DNA of 64,000 nucleotides, taken from assembly GCF_006274605.1 (NCBI RefSeq), contig NZ_CP040846.1, positions 1,123,041 to 1,187,040 on the forward strand, in the 5' to 3' direction. Source of the stretch: Thermococcus indicus (GTDB lineage: Archaea > Methanobacteriota_B > Thermococci > Thermococcales > Thermococcaceae). Position 1 is the stretch's first letter; every line of letters begins with the position of its first letter. Of this stretch, positions 14,301 through 49,257 are shown piece by piece. Under the pieces are notes generated by a model, which did not search any database, was not told where the DNA came from, and saw nothing but the letters and a program-made list of their open reading frames with translations. The position numbers and the translations under genes were made by a program.

Positions 14301-15449
14301 TCAGCCCACCACCCTCTCGACTATCTCCATCGGAGTGTGAACCTCGCCGCCTATCTTTGCTATGAGCTCGACCTCCGCCTTTCCGTTGGCGCCCTCTTTG
14401 ACGAGGTGGTAGAGCTGTCCGAGGTTCATCTCCGGGACGTATATCTTCCTCACGCGCTCGGCAAGCTCCTCGATCATGTCGAAGTCAAAGGGCCATATCG
14501 TGTTGAGCTTGAGGAGGCCTGCCTTAACGCCCCTCTCGCGGAGTATCTTAACGGCCCTCACAGCCGAGCGGGAGACTATGCCGGTGCTTACTATCGCCAC
14601 CTCGGCGTCATCGAGCTCGAAGGCATCGTAGGAGATGATGTCCTCCCTGTTGCGCTCCAGCTTTTCGATTATTCTACGTATGAGCTTCTCGTGAACCTCC
14701 GCATCGACCGTCTTGGGCCTTCCCCTCTCGTCGTGGGTGAGGCCGGTGACGTAGGTTCTGTACCCCTTGCCGAATATCGGCATCGGCGGCACGCCGTCGC
14801 CGTGTATGTCCCCGAAGGGATACTTGGCCTCCTCCTCGTTGGCAGGAAGCTTGCGGTCGATTATCTCGACCTCCCCTGGTGTGGGGATGTAAACGCGCTC
14901 GCGCATGTGGGCTATCTCCGCGTCGGTGAGAAGAACGACCGGCGTCCTGTACTTCTCGGCCAGGTTGAAGGCCCTTATCGTCAGGTCGAAGGCCTCCTGG
15001 ACGGTTGAGGGACTGAGGACTATGAGCGAGTGGTCGCCGTGGGTTCCCCAGATGGCCTGCATTATGTCGCCCTGGGCCGCGAGGGTCGGTTGACCCGTTG
15101 AAGGCCCACCGCGCTGGACGTCCACGACAACGACCGGGGTTTCAGTCATTATCGCGTAGCCTAGGTTTTCCTGCATGAGGCTGAATCCCGGGCCGCTCGT
15201 TGCCGTCATAGCCTTCGCTCCAGCCCAGGAGGCGCCTATTATCGCCGCCATGCTCGCCAGCTCGTCCTCCATCTGTATGCTCACACCGTCCACCAGCGGC
15301 ATGTAAAGGGCCATGGCCTCGAATATCTCGCTCGCAGGTGTGATGGGATAGCCCGCGTAGAAGCGGCATCCCGCGAGGATCGCCGCCCTCGCTATCGCCT
15401 CGTCCCCCTGAATGAAATCGCTCTTACCGACCGGAAACGGGTATCTCAT
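14301..15449 (-). CDS. 2-oxoacid:ferredoxin oxidoreductase alpha subunit, second complex
   Basis: Alpha subunit (382 residues) with the pyrimidine-binding part of the TPP site: GCRFYAGYPITPASEI, IQMEDELASMAAIIGAS, TSGPGFSLMQENLGYA and the RGGPSTGQPT loop. The C-terminal half is the transketolase-C-like domain. I place the start at ATG 15449, since GGAGG is 7 nt upstream; the ATG at 15455 would be too close. The stop of korG overlaps the start (ATGA-type). Substrate could be a branched-chain, aryl or other 2-oxoacid; sequence alone does not decide. Confidence 0.93.
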   Translation of the reverse strand: MRYPFPVGKSDFIQGDEAIARAAILAGCRFYAGYPITPASEIFEAMALYMPLVDGVSIQMEDELASMAAIIGASWAGAKAMTATSGPGFSLMQENLGYAIMTETPVVVVDVQRGGPSTGQPTLAAQGDIMQAIWGTHGDHSLIVLSPSTVQEAFDLTIRAFNLAEKYRTPVVLLTDAEIAHMRERVYIPTPGEVEIIDRKLPANEEEAKYPFGDIHGDGVPPMPIFGKGYRTYVTGLTHDERGRPKTVDAEVHEKLIRRIIEKLERNREDIISYDAFELDDAEVAIVSTGIVSRSAVRAVKILRERGVKAGLLKLNTIWPFDFDMIEELAERVRKIYVPEMNLGQLYHLVKEGANGKAEVELIAKIGGEVHTPMEIVERVVG

Positions 15450-15958
15450 CTGCATCCCTCCTCGTAACCGACCCTGAAGGCTTTGATGTTTATATCCTCG
15501 GTCCCCTTGGGAACCCTCCTTCTTATGGCCTCCTCGACGTTTTCCTTCTTCACAATACCGGTTTTCGCCACGAGATAGCCGAGGGCGACCATGTTGACGG
15601 TGAGTGCCAGACCCGTGCTTTCCTCCGCCAGGCGCGTGAACGGGGCACCGATGTAGTCCCTATCGGGCTTGACCAAGTCCGTGTCTATGATCAGCAGCCC
15701 GTCTTCCTTAAGCTCGTCCTTTACTGTGTCGTAGCCTAGCTGGGCGAGGGCAACGAGAACGTCGGCCTTCGTCACGATTACATCGTAAATGGGCTCCTTT
15801 GAGATTATCACGTCGGATATTGAATGACCCCCCCTGCTCGCGGAGCTGTAGTCCTGGGTCTGGACGACGTTGAGGCCCTCTATCGCAGCCGCCTCTCCGA
15901 GTATGACACCGGCCAGGACAACGCCCTGGCCACCTATGCCTGCGAACCTAACCTGCAT
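15446..15958 (-). CDS. korG: 2-oxoacid:ferredoxin oxidoreductase gamma subunit (KGOR-like)
   Basis: Gamma subunit, 170 residues, with FAGIGGQGVVLAG and the TQDYSSASRGGHSISDV motif. It most likely belongs to the first complex (korD-korA-korB to the right), because the second complex has its own gamma at 12898. Two genes of a MNT-HEPN module separate it from korB, which is unusual. ATG 15958 is chosen because GGGGGTG is 5 nt upstream; the ribosome site lies inside the last codons of the HEPN gene, so translation remains coupled through the insertion. I infer 2-oxoglutarate as substrate from gene order known in Pyrococcus, not from a diagnostic residue. Confidence 0.88.
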   Translation of the reverse strand: MQVRFAGIGGQGVVLAGVILGEAAAIEGLNVVQTQDYSSASRGGHSISDVIISKEPIYDVIVTKADVLVALAQLGYDTVKDELKEDGLLIIDTDLVKPDRDYIGAPFTRLAEESTGLALTVNMVALGYLVAKTGIVKKENVEEAIRRRVPKGTEDINIKAFRVGYEEGCR

Positions 15959-15960
15959 TT

Positions 15961-16338
15961 TCACACCCCCAAGTAGGATTTCGCAAACTCCAAGAACTCA
16001 CGGGCGTATTCCAAAACTTCATGTGCTTCTTTTTCGGTGTACTCGATGAATGCGTCGTAGTCAGCCGTGTGTCTCATGTTCAGAGCCTTTGAATATCCTG
16101 TGTATAATCTCGGAGGCATCTCTCCAGTTTTAACGAATTCCTTGCCGAGCGCTGCATGGACTCCAGCGTGTCTCCTTGGAGTAATTCCCTTAGCCAGCAA
16201 AAGGGCCCTTGCACAGTAGAACATGGCGTAGTATGCACTGGAGATGGCAAGGCTATAGTACCCACTCTCAAAGAGCTCGCCCGTGGCATTTAGTCTTTCT
16301 TCAGCCTTCTTGATTAGCGCGTGTATTTCGTCGTTCAT
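15961..16338 (-). CDS. HEPN-domain protein (toxin of MNT-HEPN pair)
   Basis: A 125-residue all-helical HEPN protein. The N-terminal helix (MNDEIHALIKKAEERLNAT) is followed by SGYYSLAISSAYYAMFYCARALL, the diagnostic HEPN helix. Next comes a TPRRHAGVHAALG loop, with an R-x4-H possibility, and a C-terminal RHTADYD motif. HEPN proteins of this type act as RNases whose activity is blocked by AMPylation from the partner nucleotidyltransferase. The ATG overlaps the partner's stop (ATGA). The stop lies 3 bases from korG, whose ribosome site it contains. It is embedded in the kor operon. Confidence 0.85.
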   Translation of the reverse strand: MNDEIHALIKKAEERLNATGELFESGYYSLAISSAYYAMFYCARALLLAKGITPRRHAGVHAALGKEFVKTGEMPPRLYTGYSKALNMRHTADYDAFIEYTEKEAHEVLEYAREFLEFAKSYLGV

Positions 16339-16616
16339 ACTGCGATGCCCTCCGACTTGGCCGTTCTGTAGAGACTGTCCCTTTTTATGTGCGGCACTAT
16401 CATGACCGAGACCCCAAGTTCAAGCGTCATATTTGCGCTGAGCTCTGCTATAATCTCCCAGTCCTCCGGTTTAACCTCATCTTTGAGGATTACGAGAATG
16501 TCCAGGTCGCTGTCCTCTTTAAAGTCTCCTCTGGCCCTTGAACCAAATATTATAACCTCCTCCACCCTGTCTCCAAAGGCGTCCCTGATTTTCTTTCCAA
16601 CGCCCGCGAGCTCCAT
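16335..16616 (-). CDS. Minimal nucleotidyltransferase (MNT antitoxin)
   Basis: A 93-residue MNT-family nucleotidyltransferase with the intact motif GSRARGDFKEDSDLD: G25-S26, catalytic acidic pair D37/D39 and a downstream conserved VSVMIV strand. It pairs with the HEPN gene overlapping its 3' end; MNT antitoxins modify the HEPN toxin with AMP. ATG 16616 fits the GGAGTG site. A GTG at 16625 overlapping the korB stop is possible but places the site wrongly. The pair sits between korB and korG and is read from the kor promoter. Confidence 0.88.
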   Translation of the reverse strand: MELAGVGKKIRDAFGDRVEEVIIFGSRARGDFKEDSDLDILVILKDEVKPEDWEIIAELSANMTLELGVSVMIVPHIKRDSLYRTAKSEGIAV

Positions 16617-16621
16617 ATTCC

Positions 16622-17473
16622 TCACTCCTTAAGGCCGAAGTGCTCCTGAACTTCGTCTATGAGCTTGTTAAGCTCTGTGATGAACTCGGGCCTCTCCCTG
16701 TTGACGAACTCGCCGATGACGAACTTGCCCTCGAGCTCCTCCGGGCTCATGTTTCTGGCCTTGCTAACCGGAACCGAGTTCTTGAGGAACCAGTGGAGCA
16801 TCTCGGCCGGCTCCTTCATCCTGTTCCTCCTTCCGAACTGGACCGGGCACTGGGAGATGACCTCAACGAGCGAGAAGCCCTTAACCTGGAGGGCTTTCTT
16901 TATGCTCTCGATGAGCTGGTAGACGTGGGCGGTTGTCCAGCGGGCAACGTAGCTCGCTCCGGCGGCAGCAACAGTCTCAGAAATCTGGAGAGGGTGTTCT
17001 ATGTTTCTGTACGGGCTGGTGGTGGTTTTGGCGCCGAAGGGCGTCGTTGGGGCCACCTGTCCGCCCGTCATTCCGTAGATGAAGTTGTTGACGAGGATTA
17101 CGGTTATGTCTATGTTCCTTCTCGCGGCGTGGAGCAGGTGGTTGCCGCCTATGCTCGCCAGATCACCGTCACCGCTTATGACGACGACCTTCTTGTCCGG
17201 AAGGCCGACCTTAACGCCAGTGGCGAAGGCAATCGCCCTCCCGTGGGTCGTGTGGAGGGTATCGGCTAAAAAGTACGGTGAGGCTATCCATGCGGAGCAG
17301 CCTATACCGCTGACGACGACGAGATCCTTCGGGTCGAGTTTGAGGCTGTCTATCGCGTTCGCGAAGGCGTTGAGGACGGTTCCGCCGCCGCAGCCGGGAC
17401 AGAGGGCCGTGGGTAAAGCCTCCTTGCGGAGGTACTTAACCATCGGATAGGTGGAGTATATCTTCTTCGCCAT
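16622..17473 (-). CDS. korB: 2-oxoglutarate:ferredoxin oxidoreductase-like beta subunit
   Basis: Beta subunit of the first complex, 283 residues. The TPP and Fe-S motifs match those of its paralogue at 13455: LCPGCGGG, SGIGCSA, ISGDGDLASIGGNH...ILVNNFIYG and ISQCPVQFGRRNRM. The start ATG at 17473 overlaps the korA stop (TGATG), with GGGGTG upstream. The stop is followed by the MNT gene instead of gamma. The product transfers electrons from 2-oxoacid decarboxylation to ferredoxin through its [4Fe-4S] cluster. 2-Oxoglutarate is inferred from the D-A-B-G gene order. Confidence 0.93.
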   Translation of the reverse strand: MAKKIYSTYPMVKYLRKEALPTALCPGCGGGTVLNAFANAIDSLKLDPKDLVVVSGIGCSAWIASPYFLADTLHTTHGRAIAFATGVKVGLPDKKVVVISGDGDLASIGGNHLLHAARRNIDITVILVNNFIYGMTGGQVAPTTPFGAKTTTSPYRNIEHPLQISETVAAAGASYVARWTTAHVYQLIESIKKALQVKGFSLVEVISQCPVQFGRRNRMKEPAEMLHWFLKNSVPVSKARNMSPEELEGKFVIGEFVNRERPEFITELNKLIDEVQEHFGLKE

Positions 17474-18663
17474 CAGGCAACACCCCTTATCTCGCGGAGG
17501 ATTTCCTCAACGGTCAGAGGCACTCCGCCAATTTTGTTCACGCCCTTGAGGAGAACGTCGTCGTTGACGTAGCGCTCGACTTCGATTATCATCTGACCGA
17601 GGTTCATCTCGGCGACGAGTATTGTCCTAACGCGCTTTCCAAGCTCCCTCATTCTCTCCGCCGGGAACGGGTGGACGGTCTTCGGCACGAAGAGGCCGAC
17701 ATTTATTCCCTCTTCTCTCGCCCTGAGAACCGCCCCAAGGGCCGGACGAGCGCTAACGCCCCAGCTGACGACGAGTATCTCGGCATCGTCCGTGAAGTGC
17801 TCCTCGTACTTCTCGTAAACTTCGCGGTTCTTCTCGATCTTGCGGTGGATTCTCCTCACGAGCTTATCGTGGACCTCGGGGGTGTAAACATCTCTCAAAC
17901 CGTTCTCCTTGTGGGTCGAACCGGTGACATGGGTGAAGTAGCCGTGGCCAAAGAGAGGCATCGGCGGAACGCCGTCCCCGTGGGGGTCGCCGAAGGGGAG
18001 CCTTGCCTCTTCTTCATTCTGTGGAAGCTTGCGGTAGGCAATTTCCACTTCCTCGATGTCCGGAATTTTTATCTGCTCCCTGGTGTGAGCTAAAACCCCA
18101 TCGAAGAGCACCACAACTGGAGTTCTCAGCTTTTCGGCGATGTTAAAGGCCCTTATGGTCTCCCAGAAGGCGTCCTGCCCGCTCGTTGGAGAAACGGCAA
18201 CGATTGGGTGGTCCCCGTGCGTTCCCCATCTCGCCTGGAAGAAGTCGCCCTGAGCTCCCTTCGTGGCCTGTCCGGTTGAGGGGCCGCTCCTCTGGACGTC
18301 GACAAGAACGAGCGGGGTTTCGGTCATCACGGCATAGCCTAGGTTCTCCTGCATGAGGCTGAATCCGGGTCCGGCAGTGGCGGTCATAACCTTAAACCCG
18401 GTCCATGAGGCGCCGACCATCGCGGCTATGCTCCCTATCTCGTCCTCCATCTGGAGGTAGTAGCCGCCGAGCTTCGGCAGTTCTCTTGCCATAGTCTCAG
18501 CTATCTCGCTGGATGGGGTTATCGGGTAACCCGCGTAGAAGCGGCACCCTGCGAAGAGAGCGCCATAGGCTACAGCCTCATTGCCCTGCATGAAGTAGTT
18601 GCCCGGTTTGTAGAGCTTTCTAATGAGCCTGAGCTGTTCAGGCTCGTCTCCACGAATAATCAT
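17473..18663 (-). CDS. korA: 2-oxoglutarate:ferredoxin oxidoreductase-like alpha subunit
   Basis: Alpha subunit, 396 residues, with GCRFYAGYPITPSSEIAET, LQMEDEIGSIAAMVGAS, TAGPGFSLMQENLGYA and RSGPSTGQATKGAQGD. These are the alpha-side TPP contacts and the loop conserved in KGOR/VOR-type enzymes. I prefer ATG 18663, preceded by GGTGGTGAGC, over the in-frame GTGs at 18672 and 18669. The first codons overlap the end of korD, so the operon is translationally coupled. It shares clear paralogy with the alpha subunit at 14301 but differs in the N-terminal extension (IIRGDEPEQLRLIRKLY). Confidence 0.93.
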   Translation of the reverse strand: MIIRGDEPEQLRLIRKLYKPGNYFMQGNEAVAYGALFAGCRFYAGYPITPSSEIAETMARELPKLGGYYLQMEDEIGSIAAMVGASWTGFKVMTATAGPGFSLMQENLGYAVMTETPLVLVDVQRSGPSTGQATKGAQGDFFQARWGTHGDHPIVAVSPTSGQDAFWETIRAFNIAEKLRTPVVVLFDGVLAHTREQIKIPDIEEVEIAYRKLPQNEEEARLPFGDPHGDGVPPMPLFGHGYFTHVTGSTHKENGLRDVYTPEVHDKLVRRIHRKIEKNREVYEKYEEHFTDDAEILVVSWGVSARPALGAVLRAREEGINVGLFVPKTVHPFPAERMRELGKRVRTILVAEMNLGQMIIEVERYVNDDVLLKGVNKIGGVPLTVEEILREIRGVA

Positions 18664-23024: not shown

Positions 23025-23028
23025 ATTC

Positions 23029-23499
23029 ATGAGACTTCGCTCGCTCCTCTATCTTTTCCTCTTCCCTGCATGGGAGTTCCTGCTCATGATCTTACTTTCC
23101 CCAGGATATTATGTTAAAGCATCCTGCCTTCAGATACATCCATATCCAATCTGCGGCTTTCACTTTAGCCCGTCGGCAACTTTCGTCCTCCTCGTGACGG
23201 CACCGTTCTTAATCTCAATTATCCTCGGTCTCTGGAAGAAATGGGACGAACTCGTAGCATTTGGAGTTCCTTCCTTTGTCGTTGTTTTAGTAACGATTAT
23301 CCTCCTGTATCTCTTCGAAAAGTCATGGATTTCCTTTTTCGTGCCCGTAATAGTCTCGGTGGTCCTGTATAGCCTCCCATGTATAAGACTGGACGGCCCT
23401 ATAAAAAGAGCGGAAAGGCTGGTATGGATAGCCACGTCACTCATAGTCTCGTTTATCCTCTGCATTATGGTGTGGAATGGCATATCAATAATGGTATAG
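23029..23499 (+). CDS. Small four-TM membrane protein, array copy A1
   Basis: A 156-residue membrane protein, intact copy of a family I do not recognise. Layout: N-terminal TM (LLYLFLFPAWEFLLMILL), an extracytoplasmic loop with two cysteines (YYVKASCLQIHPYPICGF), then HFSPSATFVLLVTAPF and three further hydrophobic segments. Shared marks across the array are AWE, YYVK, SPS-x-FVLLV and a LWKKW-type turn. It has a full GGAGGTGA site before ATG 23029 and follows the peptidase by 4 bases, so it is likely cotranscribed. Confidence 0.65.
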   Translation: MRLRSLLYLFLFPAWEFLLMILLSPGYYVKASCLQIHPYPICGFHFSPSATFVLLVTAPFLISIILGLWKKWDELVAFGVPSFVVVLVTIILLYLFEKSWISFFVPVIVSVVLYSLPCIRLDGPIKRAERLVWIATSLIVSFILCIMVWNGISIMV

Positions 23500-23550
23500 A
23501 AGAATTTTATAACAAAGGATGTCGTATTTACTGCAGATGGAGGGGGCTTA

Positions 23551-24265
23551 ATGAGGAAATTCCACATTGTCTTCCTGTTGTTGGTTGTCACATTGGCGTT
23601 GATTGCCGCGAAAGTCTCTCAACATCCAGAAAAAAGCCAGTGCTTCTCAACGGTGCCTGTGAACGTCAGCGATGTTAAGCCTCCCATCGTCAGCGGGCCG
23701 GGGTTCCCGCCGAGCTACAAGTTCGGGGGAATAACATTGGATGAGGTTGTAAACGGAAGCCCCCGACACGTGCTCCCCGGGTTTTTTGGCTTTGAAAACG
23801 GCGTCGTGGCCCCTTGAAAAGCCCGCCTGCTACTTTAAATCCCTGGAAGGCGTTTCCGAGAACTGGACTGGGATTATAGCACCCGGCCTGAACGTTGAAG
23901 GAGTTGAGCTCTCCGGAACCCTCCACATGGCCGTTTACTTGTATCCGTTGGAGGAAACGGCAATAATATCCAAGGTGAATTACGGGGAAACGCCGGAGAA
24001 GTCAAAGATAACCGAAGCATTTCGGCTCAAGTATAAGGAACCCCCCAGTGAGATCGTGGACGCCTACATTTCCAAGCTTAAGGACTCGGGCTATACCGCC
24101 GTCAGGGAGCTTTCCGGAGGTCTTTTCAAGGGTTGGATTTTCAGGAAGGGAAATAATTACCTGCTCGTGCTTAAGGTTAGAGACCAGGGCAACCTGTACC
24201 TGCTCCTCGCCAGAGGTAATGAGAGGGACATCAAAAAACTCGCTGACTCAATTTCCCTTATGTGA
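23551..24265 (+). pseudogene. Secreted/membrane-anchored protein gene with one frameshift
   Basis: Reading starts at ATG 23551 (signal or anchor MRKFHIVFLLLVVTLALIAA), preceded by a GGAGGGGG site, and stops early at 23817. The frame that continues to 24265 resumes at LEKPACYFKSLEGVSENWTG. Joining both frames near the CCCC run at 23810-23813 gives one sensible protein of about 237 residues, so a single-base indel (or a sequencing error) is the simplest reading. The product has an extracytoplasmic domain with sequons, ends DIKKLADSISLM, and has no known motif. It lies between membrane-protein copies A1 and B1. Confidence 0.55.
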
Positions 24266-24277
24266 GGTGATGTGGTG

Positions 24278-24770
24278 GTGAGGCTCAGAGGGCCCCCTCC
24301 TCCACATTTTTGTCCTCGTCTCAGCAACGGCGTGGGAGCTTGTACTTGCCTATAATAGTCGGGCCATCAGTGAGTATTATGTTGAGAAAGGCACAATTTT
24401 TTTTGAGAACTGGACAGGTGGGACAGGGGGACCCTGCATTTCTTGGAGCAAATACTCCCCCTCATTAGAGTTTGTTCTCCTAGTCCTACTCCCTACACTC
24501 GTCCTGATTATCTTATACCTTTGGTTTAAGGAGCCCGCCCTAAAGAAATCGGCACTCTCAATAGGGTTGCCTGTTTTGTCAGTGATTGTTATCTATTTTA
24601 AAACTACAGGACCGGGTGTTTTATTGGTTCTGATTGTTGTCTCGGCTGCGGTTGGTGGAGTAGTTGGGAAAGACAAGTGGGAAAAAGTGCTACTCAGTAT
24701 TGCGGGCTTTCTACCAAGCCTTATAATAGGTATGATAATAGCGGCTGAACTCACAGCCGTATGGTGTTAA
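24278..24770 (+). pseudogene. Array copy B1, frameshifted near its start
   Basis: This copy starts at GTG 24278 (RLRG-), then falls out of frame within the G/C run at about 24290. From LHIFVLVSATAWELVLAYN on it is open to TAA 24770 and matches the intact copy at 25288: AWEL, EYYVEKG, SPSLEFVLLVLLPTLVL, ALKKSALSIGLPVL. One base must be added or removed to join start and body. It may be a decayed paralogue or an assembly error. Confidence 0.55.
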
Positions 24771-24788
24771 TAAGGGGTGAGTGAACCC

Positions 24789-25260
24789 ATGAAACTCAGC
24801 CCTCTCCTTTACCCTTTCTTCTTTCCAGCATTGGGAGTTCCTGCTGATGGTTTTACTTCCACGGGAGTACTACGTCGGGGTTTCCTGCCTTCAGAGGCAT
24901 CCGTATCCAATATACACTTTTCACTTCAGCCCATCACCAGCGTTCATTCTCCTCGTGATAGCGCCGTTTATAGTCTCAATTGCTCTTGGCCTTTGGAAAA
25001 AATGGAGTGAGTTCATAACGTTTGGAACTTTTTCGCTCGCCGTTGTCGTAGTAACGCTTCTGCTCCTTTACCTCTTCGAAAAGTCTTGGATTCCCGTTGC
25101 CAGCCCCATAGTTACATCGGCAGTATTGTATGGCCCCTTCTGTGGGAAGATGAAGTGCCCAACAAGGGAAGAAAAACTAGTGTGGGTAGCGACGTCGCTC
25201 ATGACCTCGTTCATCCTCTGCATTATGGTGTGGGCGGACATCGGGAGCAGTATAAACTGA
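24789..25260 (+). pseudogene. Array copy A2, frameshifted near residue 15
   Basis: ATG 24789 follows GGGGTGA and encodes MKLSPLLYPFFFPA. An extra T at about 24831 (ATTGGGAG against ATGGGAG in A1) then shifts the frame. Removing it gives WEFLLMVLLPREYYVGVSCLQRHPYPIYTF, closely parallel to A1, through LWKKWSEFI and YLFEKSWIP to the stop at 25260. The body is otherwise intact (137 codons open), so the damage is recent or is a sequencing artefact. Confidence 0.6.
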
Positions 25261-25287
25261 AAATCCAGCCAGTATGGGGGTGAGCCT

Positions 25288-25749
25288 GTGAAACTCAGAG
25301 AACTTCACATTTTTGTCCTTGCCTCAGCAATGGCGTGGGAGCTTTTCCTCGCATACAACGCACCCCAGCTGGACGACTACTACATCAAAGGCGGAATGAT
25401 TCATCTGAGCAGTGGAGTCATCAAATGCTGGAGGGAGTACTCACCATCATTAACTTTTGTTATTCTCGTTCTCCTCCCCGCTCTCGTCTTGCTCGCCCTG
25501 TATCTCCTCTTCAAGAAAGCCACCCTAAAGAAATCGGGTCTCGCGATTGGAGTGCCCGTTCTGTTGGTGGTTCTCGTCTCCCTCATAAACCCCGATAGTT
25601 CTCTCTTGGCCCTGCCCGTCATCTCCGTCGGCGTTGGTGCTGTGCTCGGGGAAGGAAAAGGGGAGAAGGCGTTGCTCGCTATCGAGGGCTTTTTGCCGGG
25701 TTTTGTTGTGCTTACGATAATACTCGGCGGGCTTGCGGTCAGTTGCTGA
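25288..25749 (+). CDS. Small membrane protein, array copy B2
   Basis: Intact 153-residue membrane protein, GTG start at 25288 after GGGGGTGA. It has an N-terminal TM (IFVLASAMAWELFLAY), a loop with DDYYIKGG and one cysteine, SPSLTFVILVLLPALVLLALYLLF, a Lys-rich turn, and further hydrophobic segments ending GGLAVSC. It is homologous to B1 over its whole length and more distantly to the A copies, which share AWE, YY-x-K and SPS-x-F. Function is unknown. Confidence 0.65.
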   Translation: MKLRELHIFVLASAMAWELFLAYNAPQLDDYYIKGGMIHLSSGVIKCWREYSPSLTFVILVLLPALVLLALYLLFKKATLKKSGLAIGVPVLLVVLVSLINPDSSLLALPVISVGVGAVLGEGKGEKALLAIEGFLPGFVVLTIILGGLAVSC

Positions 25750-25765
25750 TGGAAGGGGAAGCACC

Positions 25766-26217
25766 ATGAGACGAGTCATGCCATTCCTGCTCCCCATCGT
25801 CGAGTTCGCACTTGCCTTTGCCGTCCCGCGAGAGGACTACGTGAAGGCCCTCTGCTGGTCGAGAAGCCCTCCCGCCTGTTCCTTCGAGTTCTCTCCCTCC
25901 CCGGTCTTCTTCTTAGCCGTTGCGCTTCCTTCGTCCTTCTCACGGTTCTCTCGCTCTGGAGAACCTGGAGGGAAACCGCCATTCTCTCGGGCTCCGCTGG
26001 AGTCGCCGTGCTCATCGGTACCGCGCTCTTAACCTTCCAAGAAGAAACTGCTCTGCTGGCCGTTCTAATCCTCTCGCCCCTTCTCCAGTGGGTGTTTGCA
26101 AAAGTTGCGGGGGCTCAAATCGAAAAGAAGGGAGGAGCTCTCCGGACGGTCCCAGCCGTCCTGAGCTTCATCGCCGTCTCGATTGTGGTGCGCATGGGTC
26201 TAGCAGTGAGTATATGA
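25766..26217 (+). pseudogene. Array copy A3, frameshifted
   Basis: ATG 25766 encodes MRRVMPFLLPIVEFALAFAV, then EDYVKALC and FEFSPSPVFFLAVAL. At about 25926-25932 one base appears to be missing. Restoring it continues as PFVLLTVLSLWRTWRE and on through the frame ending at TGA 26217 (RMGLAVSI). The order of motifs (YVKA, C, FSPS-x-F, LW-x2-W) is that of A1 and A2. It ends 1 base before the convergent ftsY stop. It is more G+C-rich than the other copies. Confidence 0.55.
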
Positions 26218-26218
26218 T

Positions 26219-27202
26219 TCACCCCTCTCCAAAAATCCTCTCCACAAACCACTTCTCGTCGAAGGGCCTTAGGTCGTCGTAGCCCTGACCAACGCCGACG
26301 AAGAGTATCGGCGCTCCAATCGCGTGGCTTATGCTCAGAGCCGCACCGCCGCGGGCGTCAGCATCGAGCTTGGTGAGGATTACGCCGTCTATCTTAACCG
26401 CCTCGTTGAACTGCTTCGCCTGCTCTACTACTGAGTTGCCGGCAAGGCTGTCGCCGACGAATATCACCAGGTCCGGCTTGGTTACGCGCGCTATCTTCTT
26501 CATCTCGTCCATGAGGTTTCTGTTCAGCTCGTTCCTCCCGGCGGTGTCTATGAGGACGACATCCAATCCCCTGGCCTTTGCATGCTGGATCGCGTCGTAG
26601 GCAACCGCAGCTGGATCTGCTCCGTAGGAGTGCTTGATGACCTTGACGCCGACGCGCCTTGCGTGCTCCTCGACCTGCTCTATCGCTCCAGCCCTGAAGG
26701 TGTCGCTCGCGGCTATGACGACGCCGAGACCGTTCTTCCTGAGCCAGTGGGCGAGCTTGGCTATGGTGGTCGTCTTTCCGGAGCCGTTGAAGCCCACGAA
26801 GGCTATGACGAAGGGTTTCTCCTCCTTGGACTTGATGAGCTCGATGAGGTCTATCTTCTTCTCGGGGGTTAGAATCTCCAGTATCGCCTCCCTGAGGCCG
26901 TCCTCAATGAGCTTGCCTTTGTTGGTTCCGATGCGAACTTTCTTCCCAACGAGATTCTCATTGATTTTCTCCCTCAGGGCTTCCACGGTTTCGAGGGCAA
27001 CGTCCGCCTCCAAAAGTTCAATTTCCAGCTCGTCCAGTGCCTCTTCAACGTCCTTCTCCTTTATCTCAACCTGGAGGAGCTTTTCAATGAACCCCTTTTT
27101 TTCCTCTGGAGTCCCCTTTTCAAGGGTCTTCTCTTCCTCCTCTATCTTCTCTTCAACGGTCTTTGTGAACTTCTTGAGCTTTTCCCGGAGTTTTCCGAAC
27201 AT
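26219..27202 (-). CDS. ftsY: Signal recognition particle receptor FtsY
   Basis: SRP receptor GTPase that docks SRP-ribosome complexes at the membrane. It has 327 residues: an acidic N-terminal segment (about 10-40), the N domain, and the G domain with P-loop GFNGSGKTT (137-145), [15 protein letters not shown] and TKLD motifs. The C-terminus reads [16 protein letters not shown] 27202 is favoured by GGTGG at 5 nt; the GTG at 27211 is part of that site. The TATA box is TTATATAGG at about 27238. Confidence 0.96.
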
Positions 27203-42333: not shown

Positions 42334-43444
42334 GGTAACGCGGGAGTGGCTACTCGAAAATCTCCTGGAACTCTCGAGGTCGGGCGACTTCCTCGAGTAC
42401 TCCCGGAAGGACTGGGACGACTACGGGGTTCTAAGCCTCTGGCAGGGCGACCTCCTCGTCTTCGGGGCGGACGTTTTCCTCGGCCAAGCTCTCGAAGAGC
42501 TGGCCCTCCTGAACTTCCACCTGCTCGGGACTGAGGCACCGCTCGACCTTGGAAAGCCGCGGACGGGAAAGCTTGAGGGGAGGCCCTTCCACCGGGCCCT
42601 CGCGGGAAAGAACTTCGACGCGTTCTTGGGGGAGCACCTGATATTTAGCCTCGGCTCCTACGACCCCTGGATAGACCTGCACGTCGTTGATGACGGGAAG
42701 ACCCTGGGGATCCTTTCCCTCGAGTGGTACGGACCGCACCAAGAGCTGTACTTCGAGGTTCCCAAGGAGGAGTGGCTCGACTCAACGGTGAGGCTCTTCA
42801 CGATGGTCGTTAGGGACTTCGAGAGGATGCGGGGGACGCTTCTCAGGCACGGCCTCATTGAGGCACCTCAAAAAATCGGGCGCTACCGGGTAATCCTGAG
42901 GAGCCTTCTCGACGCGTATCCAATAGACCTCGACGCCCTGCCACCGGCTTACGCCCCCTGGGAGGTGGAGGAAGTCCTGAGAACGGCCTCGAACTTCCTG
43001 TTCCGGGGGAGTGCCGAAGGGGCAAAGTGCGTCCTCGACTCGCTCGAAAACCCCAACCACTACTGGCAGGCGCTCTCCAGAATCCACGGGAAACCGGAGA
43101 CCCTCGAGCGCCTCTACCGCCTCCTTGATGAGCCATACCGCTCTGAGGCTCTGGCCCACCTGGCATACCTATACACTGTGGATGGAAAGCCCGGGGACGG
43201 ATCGAGGATCGCGGAGGAGCTAAGGAGCGATGCAGCCCACTGGAACCTCGCCTTGGGACTTCTCAGAGTGGAGTGCTATGAAGAGGCCATAGCAACTGCG
43301 GAAAGAATCGAAAACGCCTGGCTTAGGGGAGGAGTTCTCATCAGGGCCTACCTCGATCGGCCGGAGCTGGCCGAGGAGATAAAGGGGATAGCGCCGGAGC
43401 ACGTTAGAGTCTTCATCGAGGAAAGGGAGAAAGGAGGACATTGA
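42311..43444 (+). CDS. Hypothetical protein, second of a pair, helical-repeat C-terminus
   Basis: A 377-residue soluble protein, unrecognised. The first 180 residues are alpha/beta (LSLWQGDLLVFGADVFLGQALEEL, LGSYDPWIDLHVVDDG). The second half is all helix, with TPR/HEAT-like units (RSEALAHLAYLYTVDGKPG, WNLALGLLRVECYEEAIATAER). ATG 42311 has GGTGATT at correct spacing inside the upstream gene. The stop lies 32 bases inside the convergent thiDN gene. It is probably a partner of the 41719 product. Confidence 0.6.
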   Translation: MRTGWDVEVTREWLLENLLELSRSGDFLEYSRKDWDDYGVLSLWQGDLLVFGADVFLGQALEELALLNFHLLGTEAPLDLGKPRTGKLEGRPFHRALAGKNFDAFLGEHLIFSLGSYDPWIDLHVVDDGKTLGILSLEWYGPHQELYFEVPKEEWLDSTVRLFTMVVRDFERMRGTLLRHGLIEAPQKIGRYRVILRSLLDAYPIDLDALPPAYAPWEVEEVLRTASNFLFRGSAEGAKCVLDSLENPNHYWQALSRIHGKPETLERLYRLLDEPYRSEALAHLAYLYTVDGKPGDGSRIAEELRSDAAHWNLALGLLRVECYEEAIATAERIENAWLRGGVLIRAYLDRPELAEEIKGIAPEHVRVFIEEREKGGH

Positions 43445-44708
43445 CCCTTTTCACGACCTCCCGCGCGTCCCTTCCGAAGATTAGAACCATCGGCTCCTTG
43501 CCCCAGTCCCCGAGGTGGTAGATTAAATCGGGCCTCTCTCCAGCCCTCTTAACGGCCGTCTCTATTCCCCATTCCATCGTTCCCCTCCCGGCTCTCTTTA
43601 CCTCCTCCGGCTCCTCCCTGCGGTCGTAGAAGGAAACGACGAGGCCGAGCTCTTTGGCCCGCGCTATCAGCTCTTCCGAATAGCACAGGTTCAGGACGGC
43701 CCGGGTTTCTGGGTAGAACTCGCGCATCCTGAGCAAAGCCCTCCTCAGGTGGTCGCTGGCGTTAAGTTCCACGGGGCCAACAGGCTTTACCGTTTTTCCG
43801 TAGCGGACGATTCTGCCCTTAACTGCGAAGACTTCGCCGAGGGGAGTCGCGAGCGCGAAGTTCGTTCCCACCTCCGGAACGTGGGAGTTTAACTTTTCCC
43901 CGAGCTTCACCAGCTCTCCAACGGCCCCTTCAAGCTCTTCCCTGGCCCTCCAGCGGTAGGCATCTCTCTGGAGCTTCCAGAGGAGATTGACGGCCTTCGC
44001 TTCGGCCTTTGAGAACCTTATGGCGCCTTCGACGAAGCTCTTAGCATTTTCCACTGCCTCGGGAAGCTCAAACTCCTTCGCCAGAAAAGCGGCCAAGGCT
44101 GACGAGAAGGCACAGCCCGTCCCGTGGGTGAAGCCATCAACCCTTTCCCCAGGAAACTCAAAGAACTCCCCGTTCCAGTAGAGGACGTCGGTGAAGTTGA
44201 GATGCCCGCCCTTAACTACAACCGCTTCCGCTCCAAGCTCCTCCGCCATGGCCCTCGCCGCTTCTCTCATGTCTCCAACCGAGCGGATTTCGATGCCCGT
44301 AAGTGTTTCTGCCTCGGGGACGTTGGGGGTGACTATCGAGCCACTCACGAGGACCTTGAGCGACTCGACGTCATCAATGAGCCTCTCACCGGTGCTCGAA
44401 GCCATCACCGGGTCGAAGACCCTCGTTAAGTCCTCCGTCTCCTTGGCAACGACCTTGGCTATCTCCCCGCTCCCAAGCATGCCCACTTTGACTGCCTTAA
44501 TATCGAAGTGCCCCTTAACGGCCCGTATCTGGTCCCTCACGACCTCCACTGAAAGAGAGAAATAGCCGGAAACCTTCTCGGGGTTCTGGTAGGTGACCGC
44601 TGTAAGAATTGGGAGCGGGTGCTCCCCTAAAGCCGAGACCGTCTCGATGTCAGCCTTCAGTCCAGCTCCCCCGCCGGTGTCGAGGCCCGCTATGATGAGA
44701 ACGGCCAT
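43413..44708 (-). CDS. thiDN: Bifunctional HMP(-P) kinase / thiamine-phosphate synthase ThiDN
   Basis: A 431-residue fusion. The ThiD part (about 1-245) phosphorylates hydroxymethylpyrimidine twice: LIIAGLDTGGGAGLKADIE, DPVMASSTGE, and the anion-hole/catalytic stretch THGTGCAFSSALA (C199). The ThiN part (about 260-431) joins HMP-PP and thiazole phosphate, replacing ThiE: VGTNFALATPLG, LNASDHLRRALLRM, and DWGKEPMVLIFGRDA near the end. This fusion is typical for archaea. ATG 44708 follows GGTGATGGA and lies 4 bases from the thi4 stop, so thi4-thiDN is an operon. Confidence 0.95.
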   Translation of the reverse strand: MAVLIIAGLDTGGGAGLKADIETVSALGEHPLPILTAVTYQNPEKVSGYFSLSVEVVRDQIRAVKGHFDIKAVKVGMLGSGEIAKVVAKETEDLTRVFDPVMASSTGERLIDDVESLKVLVSGSIVTPNVPEAETLTGIEIRSVGDMREAARAMAEELGAEAVVVKGGHLNFTDVLYWNGEFFEFPGERVDGFTHGTGCAFSSALAAFLAKEFELPEAVENAKSFVEGAIRFSKAEAKAVNLLWKLQRDAYRWRAREELEGAVGELVKLGEKLNSHVPEVGTNFALATPLGEVFAVKGRIVRYGKTVKPVGPVELNASDHLRRALLRMREFYPETRAVLNLCYSEELIARAKELGLVVSFYDRREEPEEVKRAGRGTMEWGIETAVKRAGERPDLIYHLGDWGKEPMVLIFGRDAREVVKRVNVLLSPFPR

Positions 44709-44712
44709 TCCA

Positions 44713-45462
44713 TCACCTCAGCTTTTCGAGAATTTCGAAGGCCGCTTTCCTCCCGCTGAGGAACATTCCGCCGAATATCGGGCCCATTCTCGGGGCACCG
44801 CTTATCGCGTTCGCGGCCATTCCGGTGACGTAGAGGCCGGGGAAGATTTCCTTCGTGTGCTTTACGGTGAGCTCTTCGCCCCTCTCGGCCCACATCGGGC
44901 CCTCTCCGGGAACCTCAAGCAGGCCGCGCCTGACGAGGTGTTGCGTAATCTGCGCCCCGTGGCCCGTCGAATCGATTACAAACTTCGCCTCGACGGTGAG
45001 CGGGTCCACGTGGAGGCCCGTCATGAGAACCGGCGTCCAGTTGATTACGATTCCGGCCACGCGGTCGTCCTTGAGAACCAAGTCCTCGACCTCAATCATG
45101 TTGAAGAACCTCACGCCGGCTTTGACGGCCTTGCTCGCTATTGTCGTTGCTGTTTCGATAGCATCTGCAACGTAGAGGCCGTTTTTAAAGGGCTTGTACG
45201 TTATCCCGAACTCGTCGAGGATTTCCCTGGCTTCCTCCTGGACGACTATCCTGTTGAAGCCCATCGCGCCGCCCCAGATTCCGCCGCCGGTGGAGAGCTT
45301 CTTCTCGAATATCGCAACCTTTGCCCCGTTCTTCGCCAGGTAATAGCCTGCAACCATCCCCGAGGGGCCCGCGCCGACTATCGCCACGTCAAGGCTCAAA
45401 CTCTCAAGAAGCTCGGCCGTGTAGGCCTCTATTATCGCCCTGCTTATCTCTATTTCTCTCAT
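44713..45462 (-). CDS. thi4: Thiazole synthase Thi4, non-suicidal (His-type)
   Basis: A 249-residue flavin-fold enzyme making the thiazole phosphate carboxylate from NAD and glycine. The dinucleotide motif is VGAGPSGMVAGY (29-40), followed by FEKKLSTGGGIWGGAM. At the position of the yeast sulfur-donating cysteine the sequence has His (H151 in TGLHVDPLTV). Such archaeal Thi4 enzymes use free sulfide and iron and turn over catalytically. The C-terminal GLYVTGMAANAISGAPRMGPIFGGM is typical. ATG 45462 is chosen for GGGTGG at 5 nt rather than GTG 45471. It is the first gene of the thi4-thiDN operon, next to regulatory copy R1. Confidence 0.95.
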   Translation of the reverse strand: MREIEISRAIIEAYTAELLESLSLDVAIVGAGPSGMVAGYYLAKNGAKVAIFEKKLSTGGGIWGGAMGFNRIVVQEEAREILDEFGITYKPFKNGLYVADAIETATTIASKAVKAGVRFFNMIEVEDLVLKDDRVAGIVINWTPVLMTGLHVDPLTVEAKFVIDSTGHGAQITQHLVRRGLLEVPGEGPMWAERGEELTVKHTKEIFPGLYVTGMAANAISGAPRMGPIFGGMFLSGRKAAFEILEKLR

Positions 45463-45470
45463 CACGACCA

Positions 45471-45547
45471 CCCAAAAACCTTTTAAGGCTCGCTAAAAAC
45501 TGAGTTTTGAAATTTAAAAACTTTGTTATAAGTGGGTTTTAAACCGG
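45471..45547. promoter_or_regulatory. thi regulatory region, copy R1
   Basis: A 77-bp A+T-rich segment before thi4, about 90% identical (7 substitutions, one indel) and in the same orientation as copy R2 at 47224. It has TATA-like cores usable in both directions (ATTTAAAAA or its complement TTTTTAAAT, and TTATAA). An imperfect palindrome, CTAAAAACT-G-AGTTTTGAA, lies at 45493-45511. Leftward it drives thi4-thiDN. The rightward promoter half now faces the 3' end of the 45578 gene and is antisense to it. Confidence 0.7.
45493..45511. promoter_or_regulatory. Imperfect thi operator palindrome in R1
   Basis: CTAAAAACT and AGTTTTGAA flank a central G. Two positions break the symmetry that is perfect in copy R2. 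It is a likely regulator (ThiR-type) site for thi4. Confidence 0.5.
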
Positions 45548-45562
45548 CAGAAAATGCGAGTA

Positions 45563-45577
45563 GCGAAAAAAGAAAAA
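45563..45577 (-). terminator. T-rich end of the 45578 gene
   Basis: The minus strand reads ATTTTTCTTTTTTCG directly after the stop codon. Confidence 0.4.
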
Positions 45578-47167
45578 TCAACGGTCATGCCCGGTGTTGA
45601 TATTATCCGGGCAGTAACCAGTACGCGGGTCACAGGGCGGGCTGTAGCCAGGATCCCCTGGGATGAAGATATCTCCAAACATTCCAGTTAGGGGGTACTT
45701 GTCACCTTTGTACTCAAATGCCACTTTACTGGAATATATTGTGACGCGTACGTTGGTATCTTTGTACTTTTCTTTCAATGCCATTGAAACACTTACTAAT
45801 GAAGATATCCTCGTTTCTTTAGTTAGCCCCACTCCAATTGCTAATGTGAAAGGTGCGATTTTTGTGTTTCCTCCGCCAATGACTCCCAGCACTGGTGCTG
45901 AAGCTGAAAACAGTGGTAGGGTATTTACTCTATGACTAAAGTAATATGTGTTGGTGAGAAGCCCTCCCTCGCTTTCCATAACGCCCTTGGGAGTCCAGTA
46001 CCTATGTACAAACAGCATCGTCCTGCTCATCGGTCCTCCGTTCTCCCTTGGCCATCCGGGTTCTACGAACTCTCTCAGGCGCATGTCCTTTTCATCTGGT
46101 TTCCCCAAGATAACGTACGCGTAGGTGTCGAGAGGTTTTTTGTTCCAGACCTCACCATTGATGTAATCAACTCTATAGAGCTGGTACTTGGCAAACGTCA
46201 CGCTACCCCTAATTCCGGCCCCAATAACGGAAGGCGAAGTTAACTCTGAACCCCATATCTTAATCGTTGATTCAGGGATCCTGAGGGAGTTTTTATTTAT
46301 TACATATGAATGCCCAAGTATCTTTCCTTCCACTGAGCCACTGACACTTCCTTTTTCAATGGCTCCCACCGCAGAGAAAGCTAGCTCCGCGTTATTGTCT
46401 GATATTGCATCGTAGTTTAAGGAGATAAAAACGTTATTTACCTTATCAGTGTCTCCAGTTACTTGAAACGCAGCCACCGGAATGATGCTGGCTGTTCCTA
46501 ACGTCTTCTCGTGAAGCCACTCAAAACAGTACCACGTCCGATCGCCACCTTCATAGAACACTGGCGAACAGGAAGACTCAAGAAGTGATAATCTCTCAGA
46601 GGAGATGCCAATGGTTTCTCTGGTTTCCTTTGAGGTTACCCTCCCATGATCTCGTAGCATCCTCATGACTTCTCCCTTGTCGTAAAGTCTGTCAATAGCA
46701 TTGCCGTCGAGTTGGACCTTGATCGTCATTCTGGATACAATCCCGTTAACCGTGAGGGGAACCGTTTTCATGAAGTAATTCAGATTGCCATCTCTGTCAA
46801 CAGTAGTCCCCAGCAGGAGCAGGGAAGGTTTCACGCTCCCCGGGTCGATGCTTTCGGCCGTTAAGTACTTGCTCCATTCGCGCATGGCATGGAGTACACG
46901 GTAAAAGTCTATTGAGATCTTGCCCTTACCGGAATAAACTCCGAGGTCCATCAGAGAGCCGTTGGGCATAAGCATTGAGATCGTAACCGTCGCCGGGTCA
47001 TCGGTGGGCAGTTCAACCTCGAAGGAGGGCTCGAAGATAAAGTTCCGGTAGTAATCCACCCTCGTCCCGTAGTATTCGGTGGACTTCACTGGAATCTGGG
47101 AGGCTGCAAAAACCGACGCTGACACCACGGCAAGTATCAGGAGAAAGACTATTGCCACTCTTTTCAC
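45578..47167 (-). CDS. Secreted hypothetical protein between two thi regulatory copies
   Basis: A 529-residue exported protein with a signal peptide (MKRVAIVFLLILAVVSASVFA). It is beta-rich, with a helix-turn section around residues 165-195 (LYDKGEVMRMLRDHGRVTSKETRETIG). It has a possible disulfide pair (SSCSPVFYE, TWYCFEW) and a Cys/Pro/Gly-rich end (SPPCDPRTGYCPDN). I recognise no family. The base composition is clearly more A+T-rich than the thi genes around it, suggesting transfer. The start is GTG 47167 with GGTGATCC. Its upstream region is R2, so transcription may be under thiamine control. Confidence 0.7.
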   Translation of the reverse strand: MKRVAIVFLLILAVVSASVFAASQIPVKSTEYYGTRVDYYRNFIFEPSFEVELPTDDPATVTISMLMPNGSLMDLGVYSGKGKISIDFYRVLHAMREWSKYLTAESIDPGSVKPSLLLLGTTVDRDGNLNYFMKTVPLTVNGIVSRMTIKVQLDGNAIDRLYDKGEVMRMLRDHGRVTSKETRETIGISSERLSLLESSCSPVFYEGGDRTWYCFEWLHEKTLGTASIIPVAAFQVTGDTDKVNNVFISLNYDAISDNNAELAFSAVGAIEKGSVSGSVEGKILGHSYVINKNSLRIPESTIKIWGSELTSPSVIGAGIRGSVTFAKYQLYRVDYINGEVWNKKPLDTYAYVILGKPDEKDMRLREFVEPGWPRENGGPMSRTMLFVHRYWTPKGVMESEGGLLTNTYYFSHRVNTLPLFSASAPVLGVIGGGNTKIAPFTLAIGVGLTKETRISSLVSVSMALKEKYKDTNVRVTIYSSKVAFEYKGDKYPLTGMFGDIFIPGDPGYSPPCDPRTGYCPDNINTGHDR

Positions 47168-47223
47168 AGGATCACCTAGATAGTTTATAGTATCTACAAC
47201 TTCAAAAAGTTTTCGGTTGAGCG

Positions 47224-47301
47224 CCCAAAAACCTTTTAAGCCGCGCTCAAAACTAAGTTTTGAGATTTAAAAACTTTGTTATAAACGGGTTTTAAAACCG
47301 G
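47224..47301. promoter_or_regulatory. thi regulatory region, copy R2
   Basis: A near-copy of R1 in direct orientation, ending at the thiC ribosome site. Rightward, ATTTAAAAA (47265-47273) is 38-46 bases before thiC ATG 47311 and fits as its TATA box. Leftward TATA-like elements (TTTTTAAAT, CTTAAAAGG) point to the 45578 gene. The perfect 19-bp palindrome at 47246-47264 abuts the TATA element. Confidence 0.75.
47246..47264. promoter_or_regulatory. Perfect thi operator palindrome in R2
   Basis: CTCAAAACT-A-AGTTTTGAG is a perfect inverted repeat of 9 bp per arm around one base. It sits immediately upstream of the thiC TATA element, where a bound dimer would block TBP/TFB. ThiR (HTH fused to a ThiN-like domain) is the known archaeal thiamine regulator and the natural candidate. 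Confidence 0.65.
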
Positions 47302-47310
47302 GTGATGGGA

Positions 47311-48591
47311 ATGACCCAGCTTGAGGAAGCTCAAAGGGGAGTAATCACGGAGGAGATGAAGTTCATCGCCGAGAGGGAGGGAATCAGCGCCGAGAAGCTC
47401 AGGAGGAGCGTCGCCAAAGGCCATACTGTCATCTTCCGCAACGTCCGCCACGACTGGGTTAAGCCCGTCGCTGTCGGCAACGTCGTCCGCGTGAAAATCA
47501 ATGCCAACATAGGCACCTCCCGCGACATCGTCGACCTCAAGGCCGAAATAGAGAAGGCTAAGGTCGCTGTCAAGTACGGGGCCGACACCATAATGGACCT
47601 CTCCACCGGCGGCGACCTCGATTCGATAAGGAAGGCCATAATGCACGCCGTTGACGTGCCGATTGGGACGGTGCCTATTTACCAGGCGGCGGAGGAGATG
47701 TTGGCAAAGGGAAAGGCAATCATCGAGATGAGCGAGGACGATATGTGGAAGGCCGTTGAGAAGCACTTCAGGGACGGCGTTGATTACACGACGATTCACG
47801 TTGGAGTCACGAAGGAAGTCGTCGAGAAGATGAAGGGTACGAAGAGAATCGTCGGCATGGTCTCGCGCGGGGGGACGTTTTTAGCTGCCTGGATACTTCA
47901 CTGGGGCGACGAGAATCCTTTCTATAAAGACTACGACTATCTGCTTGAGCTGGCCAGGGAGTACGACGTCGTTCTCAGCCTCGGCGACGGGTTGAGGCCT
48001 GGCGGACTGCCAGATGCTGGCGACGAGCTTCAGATAGCGGAACTCTACACCCTCGGGAGGCTCGTTAGAAAGGCCAGGGAAGCCGGAGTTCAAACGATGG
48101 TCGAGGGGCCAGGCCACGTTCCGATAGACCAGATAGGGGCCCAGGTGAAGCTCGCCAAGATCGCCACGGACAATGCTCCTTTCTATGTGTTGGGTCCGAT
48201 AGTTACCGACGTTTTCCCAGGCTACGACCACATCACGGCTGCCATAGGCGGAGCAATAGCCGCCCTGAACGGCGCCGACTTCCTCTGCTACGTAACGCCG
48301 GCGGAGCACCTCGGACTGCCGACGGTGGAGCACGTGAGGGAAGGGGTTATAGCCGCCAGGATAGCCGCTCACGCGGTGAACCTGACACGCTTCGAGGCCG
48401 ACTTTAGGAAGGACTACCTCATGAGCCTGGCCCGCGGTAAACTCGACTGGGCGGGACAGTTCGAGCTGAGCCAGGACAGAGATAGATTCATCGAAATAAG
48501 GAAGGAGAGACCGACAAAGACCGAGGCCTGCTCGATGTGCGGCGACCTCTGCGCGATAAAGCTCATCAACGACATGCTGAGGGATGGGTGA
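47311..48591 (+). CDS. thiC: Phosphomethylpyrimidine synthase ThiC
   Basis: Radical SAM enzyme that rearranges aminoimidazole ribotide to HMP-phosphate, 426 residues. Seen are the substrate-binding segments (ADTIMDLSTGGDLDSIR, VGMVSRGG, VEGPGHVP, GPIVTDVFPGYDHI, IGGAIAALNGADFLCYVTPAEHLGLP, given here in pieces) and the C-terminal cluster motif CSMCGDLC (C-x2-C-x3-C, the archaeal spacing). ATG 47311 follows GGGTGAT; the upstream GTG/ATG codons are part of the site. It is controlled by the R2 region. AIR links it to the purine genes downstream. Confidence 0.96.
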   Translation: MTQLEEAQRGVITEEMKFIAEREGISAEKLRRSVAKGHTVIFRNVRHDWVKPVAVGNVVRVKINANIGTSRDIVDLKAEIEKAKVAVKYGADTIMDLSTGGDLDSIRKAIMHAVDVPIGTVPIYQAAEEMLAKGKAIIEMSEDDMWKAVEKHFRDGVDYTTIHVGVTKEVVEKMKGTKRIVGMVSRGGTFLAAWILHWGDENPFYKDYDYLLELAREYDVVLSLGDGLRPGGLPDAGDELQIAELYTLGRLVRKAREAGVQTMVEGPGHVPIDQIGAQVKLAKIATDNAPFYVLGPIVTDVFPGYDHITAAIGGAIAALNGADFLCYVTPAEHLGLPTVEHVREGVIAARIAAHAVNLTRFEADFRKDYLMSLARGKLDWAGQFELSQDRDRFIEIRKERPTKTEACSMCGDLCAIKLINDMLRDG

Positions 48592-48597
48592 GGCGGA

Positions 48598-49257
48598 GTG
48601 AGGCTCATCTACCGCGGCAAGACCAAGGACGTCTACGAGGACGGCCCCCACCTAATCTTCCACTTCAAGGACACCGTCCTTGGCAGAGCAGGGAGAGAAG
48701 ACAGCGGGGGCAACGAGGTAATCGGTGAGAGGGAGGGAAAGGGAAGCATTGTCCTGGAGCAGACGGAGTTCTTCTTCCGCCTTCTTGAGAAAAACGGCTT
48801 AAAGACGCACTTCGTCGAGCGGATTGACAGCAGAAAAGCCCGCTTCCTGAAGGCAGAGAGGATTCCGCTGGAGGTCGTCTACCGCGAATTGGCCTATGGG
48901 AGCTTCCTGCTGAGGTACGGGCGCTGGGTAAAACCCTTCCAGAGGCTTGGAATGGTTGAGTTCACGCTGAAGGACGACTCCCTCGACGACCCGATCATAG
49001 CTGAGGAAGCAGTGGCTGCCCTCGGAATCGCGAGCGATGGGGAGCTTAGAGAAATGAAGTCAATCACGAGGAAGGTCGCGGAAATCTTAAGGAAGTTCTT
49101 CTCCTCAAAGGGCCTCCAGCTGGTGGATTTTAAGCTCGAGTTCGGGAGGCTGAATGGAGAGATTCTGGTGATAGACGAGCTCAGCGGCGACACTATGCGC
49201 GTTGCCAAAGGCGGGAGAATCCTGAGCAGGGAGGAACTGTTGGAGGTGATTGAATGA
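48598..49257 (+). CDS. purC: SAICAR synthetase PurC
   Basis: ATP-dependent synthesis of SAICAR from CAIR and aspartate, 219 residues. Motifs: YRGKTKDVYE near the N-terminus, GNEVIGEREGKGSI, RKARFLKAERIPLEVVYRE (typical RNx-A/S-GS-L region in diverged form), LVDFKLEFG and IDELSGDTMR. It starts at GTG 48598, 6 bases after thiC, with GGGTGAGGCGGA upstream, and overlaps purP by 4 bases (ATGA). It is the first of a purC-purP-purO run that may be read through from thiC. Confidence 0.95.
   Translation: MRLIYRGKTKDVYEDGPHLIFHFKDTVLGRAGREDSGGNEVIGEREGKGSIVLEQTEFFFRLLEKNGLKTHFVERIDSRKARFLKAERIPLEVVYRELAYGSFLLRYGRWVKPFQRLGMVEFTLKDDSLDDPIIAEEAVAALGIASDGELREMKSITRKVAEILRKFFSSKGLQLVDFKLEFGRLNGEILVIDELSGDTMRVAKGGRILSREELLEVIE

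Follow-up and report, generated by a model that had tools for sequence, protein, structure and literature searches.

In homologous-recombination hotspots, conserved genes flank a site at which flexible genes are exchanged. The interval between thi4 and thiC in Thermococcus resembles these hotspots in that the same site holds alternative contents, with a scattered presence and transfer between species; indeed, the site is empty in 37 of 48 genomes, and its content moves without its flanks according to dS in three pairs of genomes. However, hotspots have unique flanks, whereas here one gene lies within direct copies of the promoter of the flanking operons. The arrangement also recalls pop-in/pop-out, which is a Campbell-type integration: in both cases a gene stands between two repeats, and a crossover between the repeats would give back the empty site, but here the arrangement is natural, the repeat is a promoter of 64-86 bp and a circular donor was not seen. 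Furthermore, Rodionov and colleagues are said to have described, in 2017, thi promoters of archaea that are regulated by ThiR. As in these promoters, a perfect palindrome is present in the thi4/thiC region studied here, and a regulator with HTH and ThiN domains is encoded in the genome; unlike them, this predicted control region is found twice with a gene in between. A literature search returned, at the level of its search results, no published work on this locus.

The window analysed is a stretch of 64,000 nucleotides of the Thermococcus indicus genome (contig NZ_CP040846.1, positions 1,123,041 to 1,187,040). It encodes, on the minus strand, a thiazole synthase, thi4 (44713-45471; Pfam Thi4, 1.6e-79; likely start ATG at 45462), and downstream of it a thiD-thiN fusion combining a phosphomethylpyrimidine kinase and a thiamine-phosphate synthase (43413-44708; Pfam Phos_pyr_kin, 3.5e-70, and ThiN, 1.3e-51), and, on the plus strand, the HMP-phosphate synthase thiC (47302-48591; Pfam ThiC_Rad_SAM, 2.4e-183; likely start ATG at 47311) followed by purC (48598-49257; Pfam SAICAR_synt, 2.5e-43). 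Between thi4 and thiC lies one gene (45578-47167, minus strand) flanked by a direct repeat, whose copies R1 (45466-45543) and R2 (47219-47296) share 88% identity over 78 nt at a spacing of 1753 nt in a repeat search of the window (90.4% over 73 nt by BLAST). Both copies were assigned to the divergent thi control region by this search and by alignment with single-copy sites (38 in the case of R1). A sequence-only reading of this DNA had already reported a segment present twice in direct orientation at about 90% identity, and the same repeat was found again, the coordinates given there being shifted by about 5 nt. When R1 was used as a whole-genome query, it matched itself (E 6e-35) and R2 (E 7e-23); a third copy was absent, and the remaining four matches covered 14-21 nt with E values of at least 0.15. 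The window also contains diverged tandem duplications, at 13522-18052 (spacing about 3170) and 23026-27154 (spacing about 1760), both with about 71-74% identity over 150-300 nt and probably representing paralogous genes.

The survey covered 94 species of Thermococcaceae, each represented by one genome. thi4 was detected at 77-100% identity at 56 loci in 55 genomes, and all 56 loci were inspected. Empty sites, with a single R and with the thi4 and thiC starts 64-86 bp apart, were found at 38 loci in 37 genomes. Ten contiguous loci were filled, with starts 897-1862 bp apart and R present twice; nine of them carry the gene family found in the window, and the tenth (G043) carries, in the same arrangement between two R, an unrelated 186-aa ORF that is absent from the other genomes of the set. 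In G060, the filled arrangement is divided between two contigs, and at the seven loci of the g3 group thiC lay outside the fetched stretch. The 48 genomes in which thi4 and thiC are neighbours therefore comprise 37 empty ones, 10 with the gene family (including G060) and one with the unrelated ORF, i.e. 11 filled genomes out of 48. The sequence-only reading had postulated an ancestral divergent thi4/thiC promoter split by an insertion and had proposed this comparison of the interval in relatives; the empty site with one R proved to be the common state, in agreement with that history. The insertion was upheld but not its uniqueness, given related alleles that occupy this position in 10 genomes, horizontal movement and a second, unrelated ORF. 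On an rpoB tree of 40 of the 48 genomes, the eight outside it all having empty sites, a quick search gave 9 changes between the filled and empty states, against a mean of 10.0 after shuffling; the filled state is scattered almost at random on this tree. Neither strain-level presence/absence nor an excision product was seen in this set of one genome per species. Two assemblies, G060 and G064, are fragmented, and in the latter the gene and its flanks are on one contig. A tandem R-gene-R-gene-R array was considered for G060, but contig C71 opens with a thi4-type border (ACCC-AAAACC), so that two haplotypes within one assembly are equally likely. G051 has two thi4-thiC loci (L192, L195) on two contigs, which reflect either two strains or a real duplication.

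Both copies of R contain the perfect palindrome AAAACTnAGTTTT (45496-45508 in R1 and 47249-47261 in R2). These are its sole two exact matches in the genome, and with one mismatch permitted none of 100 shuffles of the window reached two matches. The palindrome stands beside a TTTAAA core (47262-47275 in R2), which reads as TATA both ways and, judging by eye from BRE/TATA spacing, would mark overlapping divergent promoters; the same element is found in R1, 1753 nt to the left. In the g3 group, where the thi4 region is without thiC, the palindrome persists in part. A ThiR-type regulator (HTH_3 and ThiN, 296 aa) is encoded outside the window (L238:1480-2370, minus strand; G000:C1, about 2116463-2117353), next to an ORF that reads like an aspartate carbamoyltransferase. 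In P. furiosus, ThiR (PF0601) is listed among predicted regulators (PMC10746257), and ThiR is the putative ligand of AAAACTnAGTTTT, which both the shuffle test and the genome search single out as a candidate operator.

The inserted gene encodes a secreted-type protein of 529 aa without known domain, as judged from profile searches. Its G+C content is 48.1%, against 58.4% for thi4, 58.0% for thiC and 55.5% for the window, and 13 of 625 sliding windows of 1590 bp are at or below this value; its A+T-richness is moderate, not extreme. The N-terminus resembles, by eye, a signal peptide, from which a surface or secreted role can be predicted. The gene had been described from the letters alone as A+T-rich and coding for a secreted protein. 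Profile searches of Pfam, NCBIfam, PADLOC and PDB gave no convincing match for the protein, and the structure predicted for this protein by itself had a mean pLDDT of 35.6, too low to be of use. Across 115 genomes of the phylum, a profile search found the family in 29, all Thermococcaceae (29 of the 94 surveyed). Members of the clade with at least 62% amino acid identity occur in 10 genomes, invariably at the thi4-thiC site, and paralogues at 24-46% occur at other loci, one group of them between genes that read as decarboxylase-like and cation-efflux-like ORFs. Flanking R copies were sought at 20 paralogue loci (L127-L146) and none was found; three of these loci carry other weak repeats. Another clade of the family (L127, L146, L130, L131), located at another locus without flanking R, shares more than 83% DNA identity across three genera, with 93.5% between G080 and G069, and has apparently also spread horizontally. 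At the thi site, dN/dS is 0.11-0.34 in five of six pairs, which suggests a functional protein; in the sixth (G070/G071) it is 0.92, from 12 differences and a stop. Indeed, the G070 gene (L122:1501-3054) is a fresh pseudogene: it has an in-frame TAG although it shares 99.2% identity with the G071 copy, which is intact. The product of the inserted gene is thus probably functional, as a surface or secreted protein, and nothing found here ties it to thiamine.

A BRE/TATA-like element, GAAAACTTTTTGAAG (47200-47214, minus strand), precedes the inserted gene. It is conserved in the clade, and the paralogues without R are preceded by similar elements at similar spacing. In T. kodakarensis, the TATA element lies about 23 bp before the start, and leaders have a median of 16 nt, those of most mRNAs being 10-50 nt long (PMC4247193). 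With this spacing, the computed leader is roughly 12-16 nt from GAAAACTTTTTGAAG and about 77 nt from R2; therefore, the inserted gene is probably driven by its own predicted promoter, and the thi4-type half of R2 is probably an orphan. Another reading, which appears rather unlikely, is that this half of R2 drives the inserted gene and makes it a thiamine-regulated member of the thi regulon, which would account for the site preference. It is consistent with the orientation of the alleles, which at this site all face the way thi4 does with R2 upstream, with the conservation of the left half of R2 (mean pairwise identity 0.83), and with the presence of the gene at the thi site in all 10 genomes of the clade with at least 62% identity; the short leader offered by the gene's own element, the similar elements of the R-less paralogues and a leader from R2 beyond the range given for most T. 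kodakarensis mRNAs (PMC4247193) argue against it.

The history of the gene is not that of its hosts. Among the ten filled genomes, gene similarity tracks neither thi4 nor thiC, and its Spearman correlation with rpoB is -0.05 (45 pairs). Nucleotide identity of the gene exceeds that of thi4 and thiC in G070/G071 (99.2% vs 89.0% and 89.6%), G000/G064 (95.5% vs 85.3% and 85.5%) and G016/G069 (89.6% vs 75.6% and 81.2%), and the corresponding dS values are 0.008 vs 0.450 and 0.469, 0.117 vs 0.751 and 0.857, and 0.233 vs 1.237 and 1.278. For G070/G071, a binning error is unlikely because both are single-contig genomes. These dS contrasts show, in three pairs, that the gene crosses species independently of its neighbours. 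They contradict a single ancient insertion in the Thermococcus ancestor followed by vertical descent with many losses between R1 and R2 and without horizontal transfer: the left flank of R2, conserved in most filled genomes, does suggest a common origin, and repeat recombination would yield exact empty sites, but dS of the gene far below that of its flanks (at its strongest 0.008 vs 0.45-0.47) and the very different alleles of the near relatives G000 and G016 (rpoB 95.6%, gene 68.7%) make this history very unlikely, even if losses may be frequent.

Breakpoints of the three transfers were located with a two-state HMM on the oriented locus. In G070/G071, the near-identical block spans 755-2493, the thi4 start being at 756 and R2 at 2515; in G016/G069, a block of 1123 bp begins at 780, inside R1 (754-827), and a second block measures 113 bp; in G000/G064, both breakpoints (978 and 2437) are within the gene. 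Two of the three pairs thus have their left breakpoint at or within R1, and the right breakpoints are all left of R2 or within the gene, none being in R2. Leaving the insert aside, exchange also affects thi4 and thiC separately: identities are 75.6% for thi4 and 96.7% for thiC in G016/G038 (L176 in G016), and 76.0% and 93.3% in G040/G042, where both sites are empty. This separate exchange implies a break at or near R.

In R1, the left half serves thi4 and the right half, once the thiC side, is orphaned; in R2, the right half serves thiC and the left half, once the thi4 side, faces the inserted gene. The match of R1 to the single-copy R begins at the thi4 start and goes on to the run TTTTAAAA; that of R2 goes from CCAAAACC to the thiC start, the thi4 ribosome-binding stretch being missing; in G054, R1 extends through the orphaned thiC leader to about the thiC start codon. 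From these extents, the duplicated piece is nearly the whole control region. R column counts were made without G034_2, in which the anchor is absent, and single-copy conservation was derived from 25 chosen rows of 38. The identity of R1 with R2, 0.885 within genomes against 0.852 between genomes, is only slightly higher within and gives no strong signal of recent duplication. Decay of the orphan halves was expected, but the identity comparison shows none: identity is 0.89 for the right leader of R1 and 0.83 for the left leader of R2, against 0.84 and 0.91 at single-copy sites. Either R acts as a single operator unit over its full length, or exchange keeps renewing it. The earlier view that each copy keeps one useful and one orphan half is accordingly favoured by the gene's own BRE/TATA-like element (47200-47214) and sits less easily with these undecayed halves.

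The origins of the two copies also bear on how R was doubled. In G069, R1 is 0.99 identical to the R of G036/G014, whereas R2 is 0.96 identical to the R of G027, the genome closest to G069 in rpoB; in G064, R1 has an identity of 0.99 with G022, with which it also shares a one-base insertion, and R2 one of 0.96 with G065. In the G069 pair, one copy resembles the R of the host clade and the other a foreign type, so that their ancestries look different, which favours import of the second copy along with the gene. In G043, the extension on the left side of R2 agrees with the remaining R2 flanks at 11/16 positions in the best four comparisons (p ~6e-4 each, uncorrected), the other six giving p 0.015-0.38, which suggests a shared junction. 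A true target-site duplication, in which a staggered transposase or integrase cut would have doubled R at each insertion, is very improbable despite the clean direct repeats flanking a single gene: the insert is a single long ORF of no Pfam or NCBIfam family, without transposase or integrase, the duplicated piece is about 77 nt and not short, the repeat search detected no inverted pair linking the insert ends, and the two G069 copies match different clades. The control region is indeed doubled almost entirely, as first described, but duplication of the target is not required to explain it.

The explanation that we favour, and consider fairly probable as a whole, is that an R-bracketed gene entered the ancestral single-R interval with a second R and was then exchanged by homologous recombination. 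The ancestral interval would have been a single divergent control region of 64-86 bp, into which the gene and a second R entered in a minority of Thermococcus species, yielding thi4-R1-gene-R2-thiC; R1 would retain the promoter of thi4 and R2 that of thiC, both operons would stay intact, and the gene would supply its own core promoter. R, about 90% identical across species, could provide homology for incoming R-gene-R DNA, presumably through natural uptake and RadA-type recombination. R together with the starts of the flanking genes is the most likely place of exchange, and other transfers may have involved crossovers in longer stretches of thi4/thiC. Linear as well as genomic DNA is taken up by P. 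furiosus COM1, in which 40 nt of flanking homology are enough for marker replacement (PMC3462420, PMC5099854); R, at 64-86 bp, exceeds this length and would thus be long enough. Speaking against R as homology, recombination in T. kodakarensis is described in PMC5495485 as reported only for at least 500 bp. The same source describes a T. nautili plasmid enzyme, the pTN3 integrase, which recombines DNA segments as short as 104 bp (PMC5495485). An integrase of this type, with low sequence specificity and acting on homologous stretches, could perform the R-by-R exchange instead of RadA, and the pTN3 system is indeed alike as a homology-based exchange in Thermococcus; this alternative has a low probability, since R is shorter (about 78 nt, against a minimum of 104 bp there), and its copies are non-identical. 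The insert itself has no integrase. With homologous recombination, the scattered presence of the gene could be explained because recombination between R1 and R2 would delete it and leave an exact empty site, scarless loss being possibly a consequence of the proposal.

In summary, a gene can enter a packed bidirectional promoter and leave both operons unbroken by bringing the promoter along a second time. Since genetic tools exist for some of the Thermococcus species that have this small site, it is directly testable. As a tentative generalisation, a conserved divergent vitamin promoter could be a landing site for interchangeable single-gene cassettes (two unrelated ones so far), which need no recombinase, leave without a scar and keep the flanking operons functional. 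A regulatory region that selection holds nearly constant would then double as a homology arm, and conserved promoters may steer where foreign genes settle.
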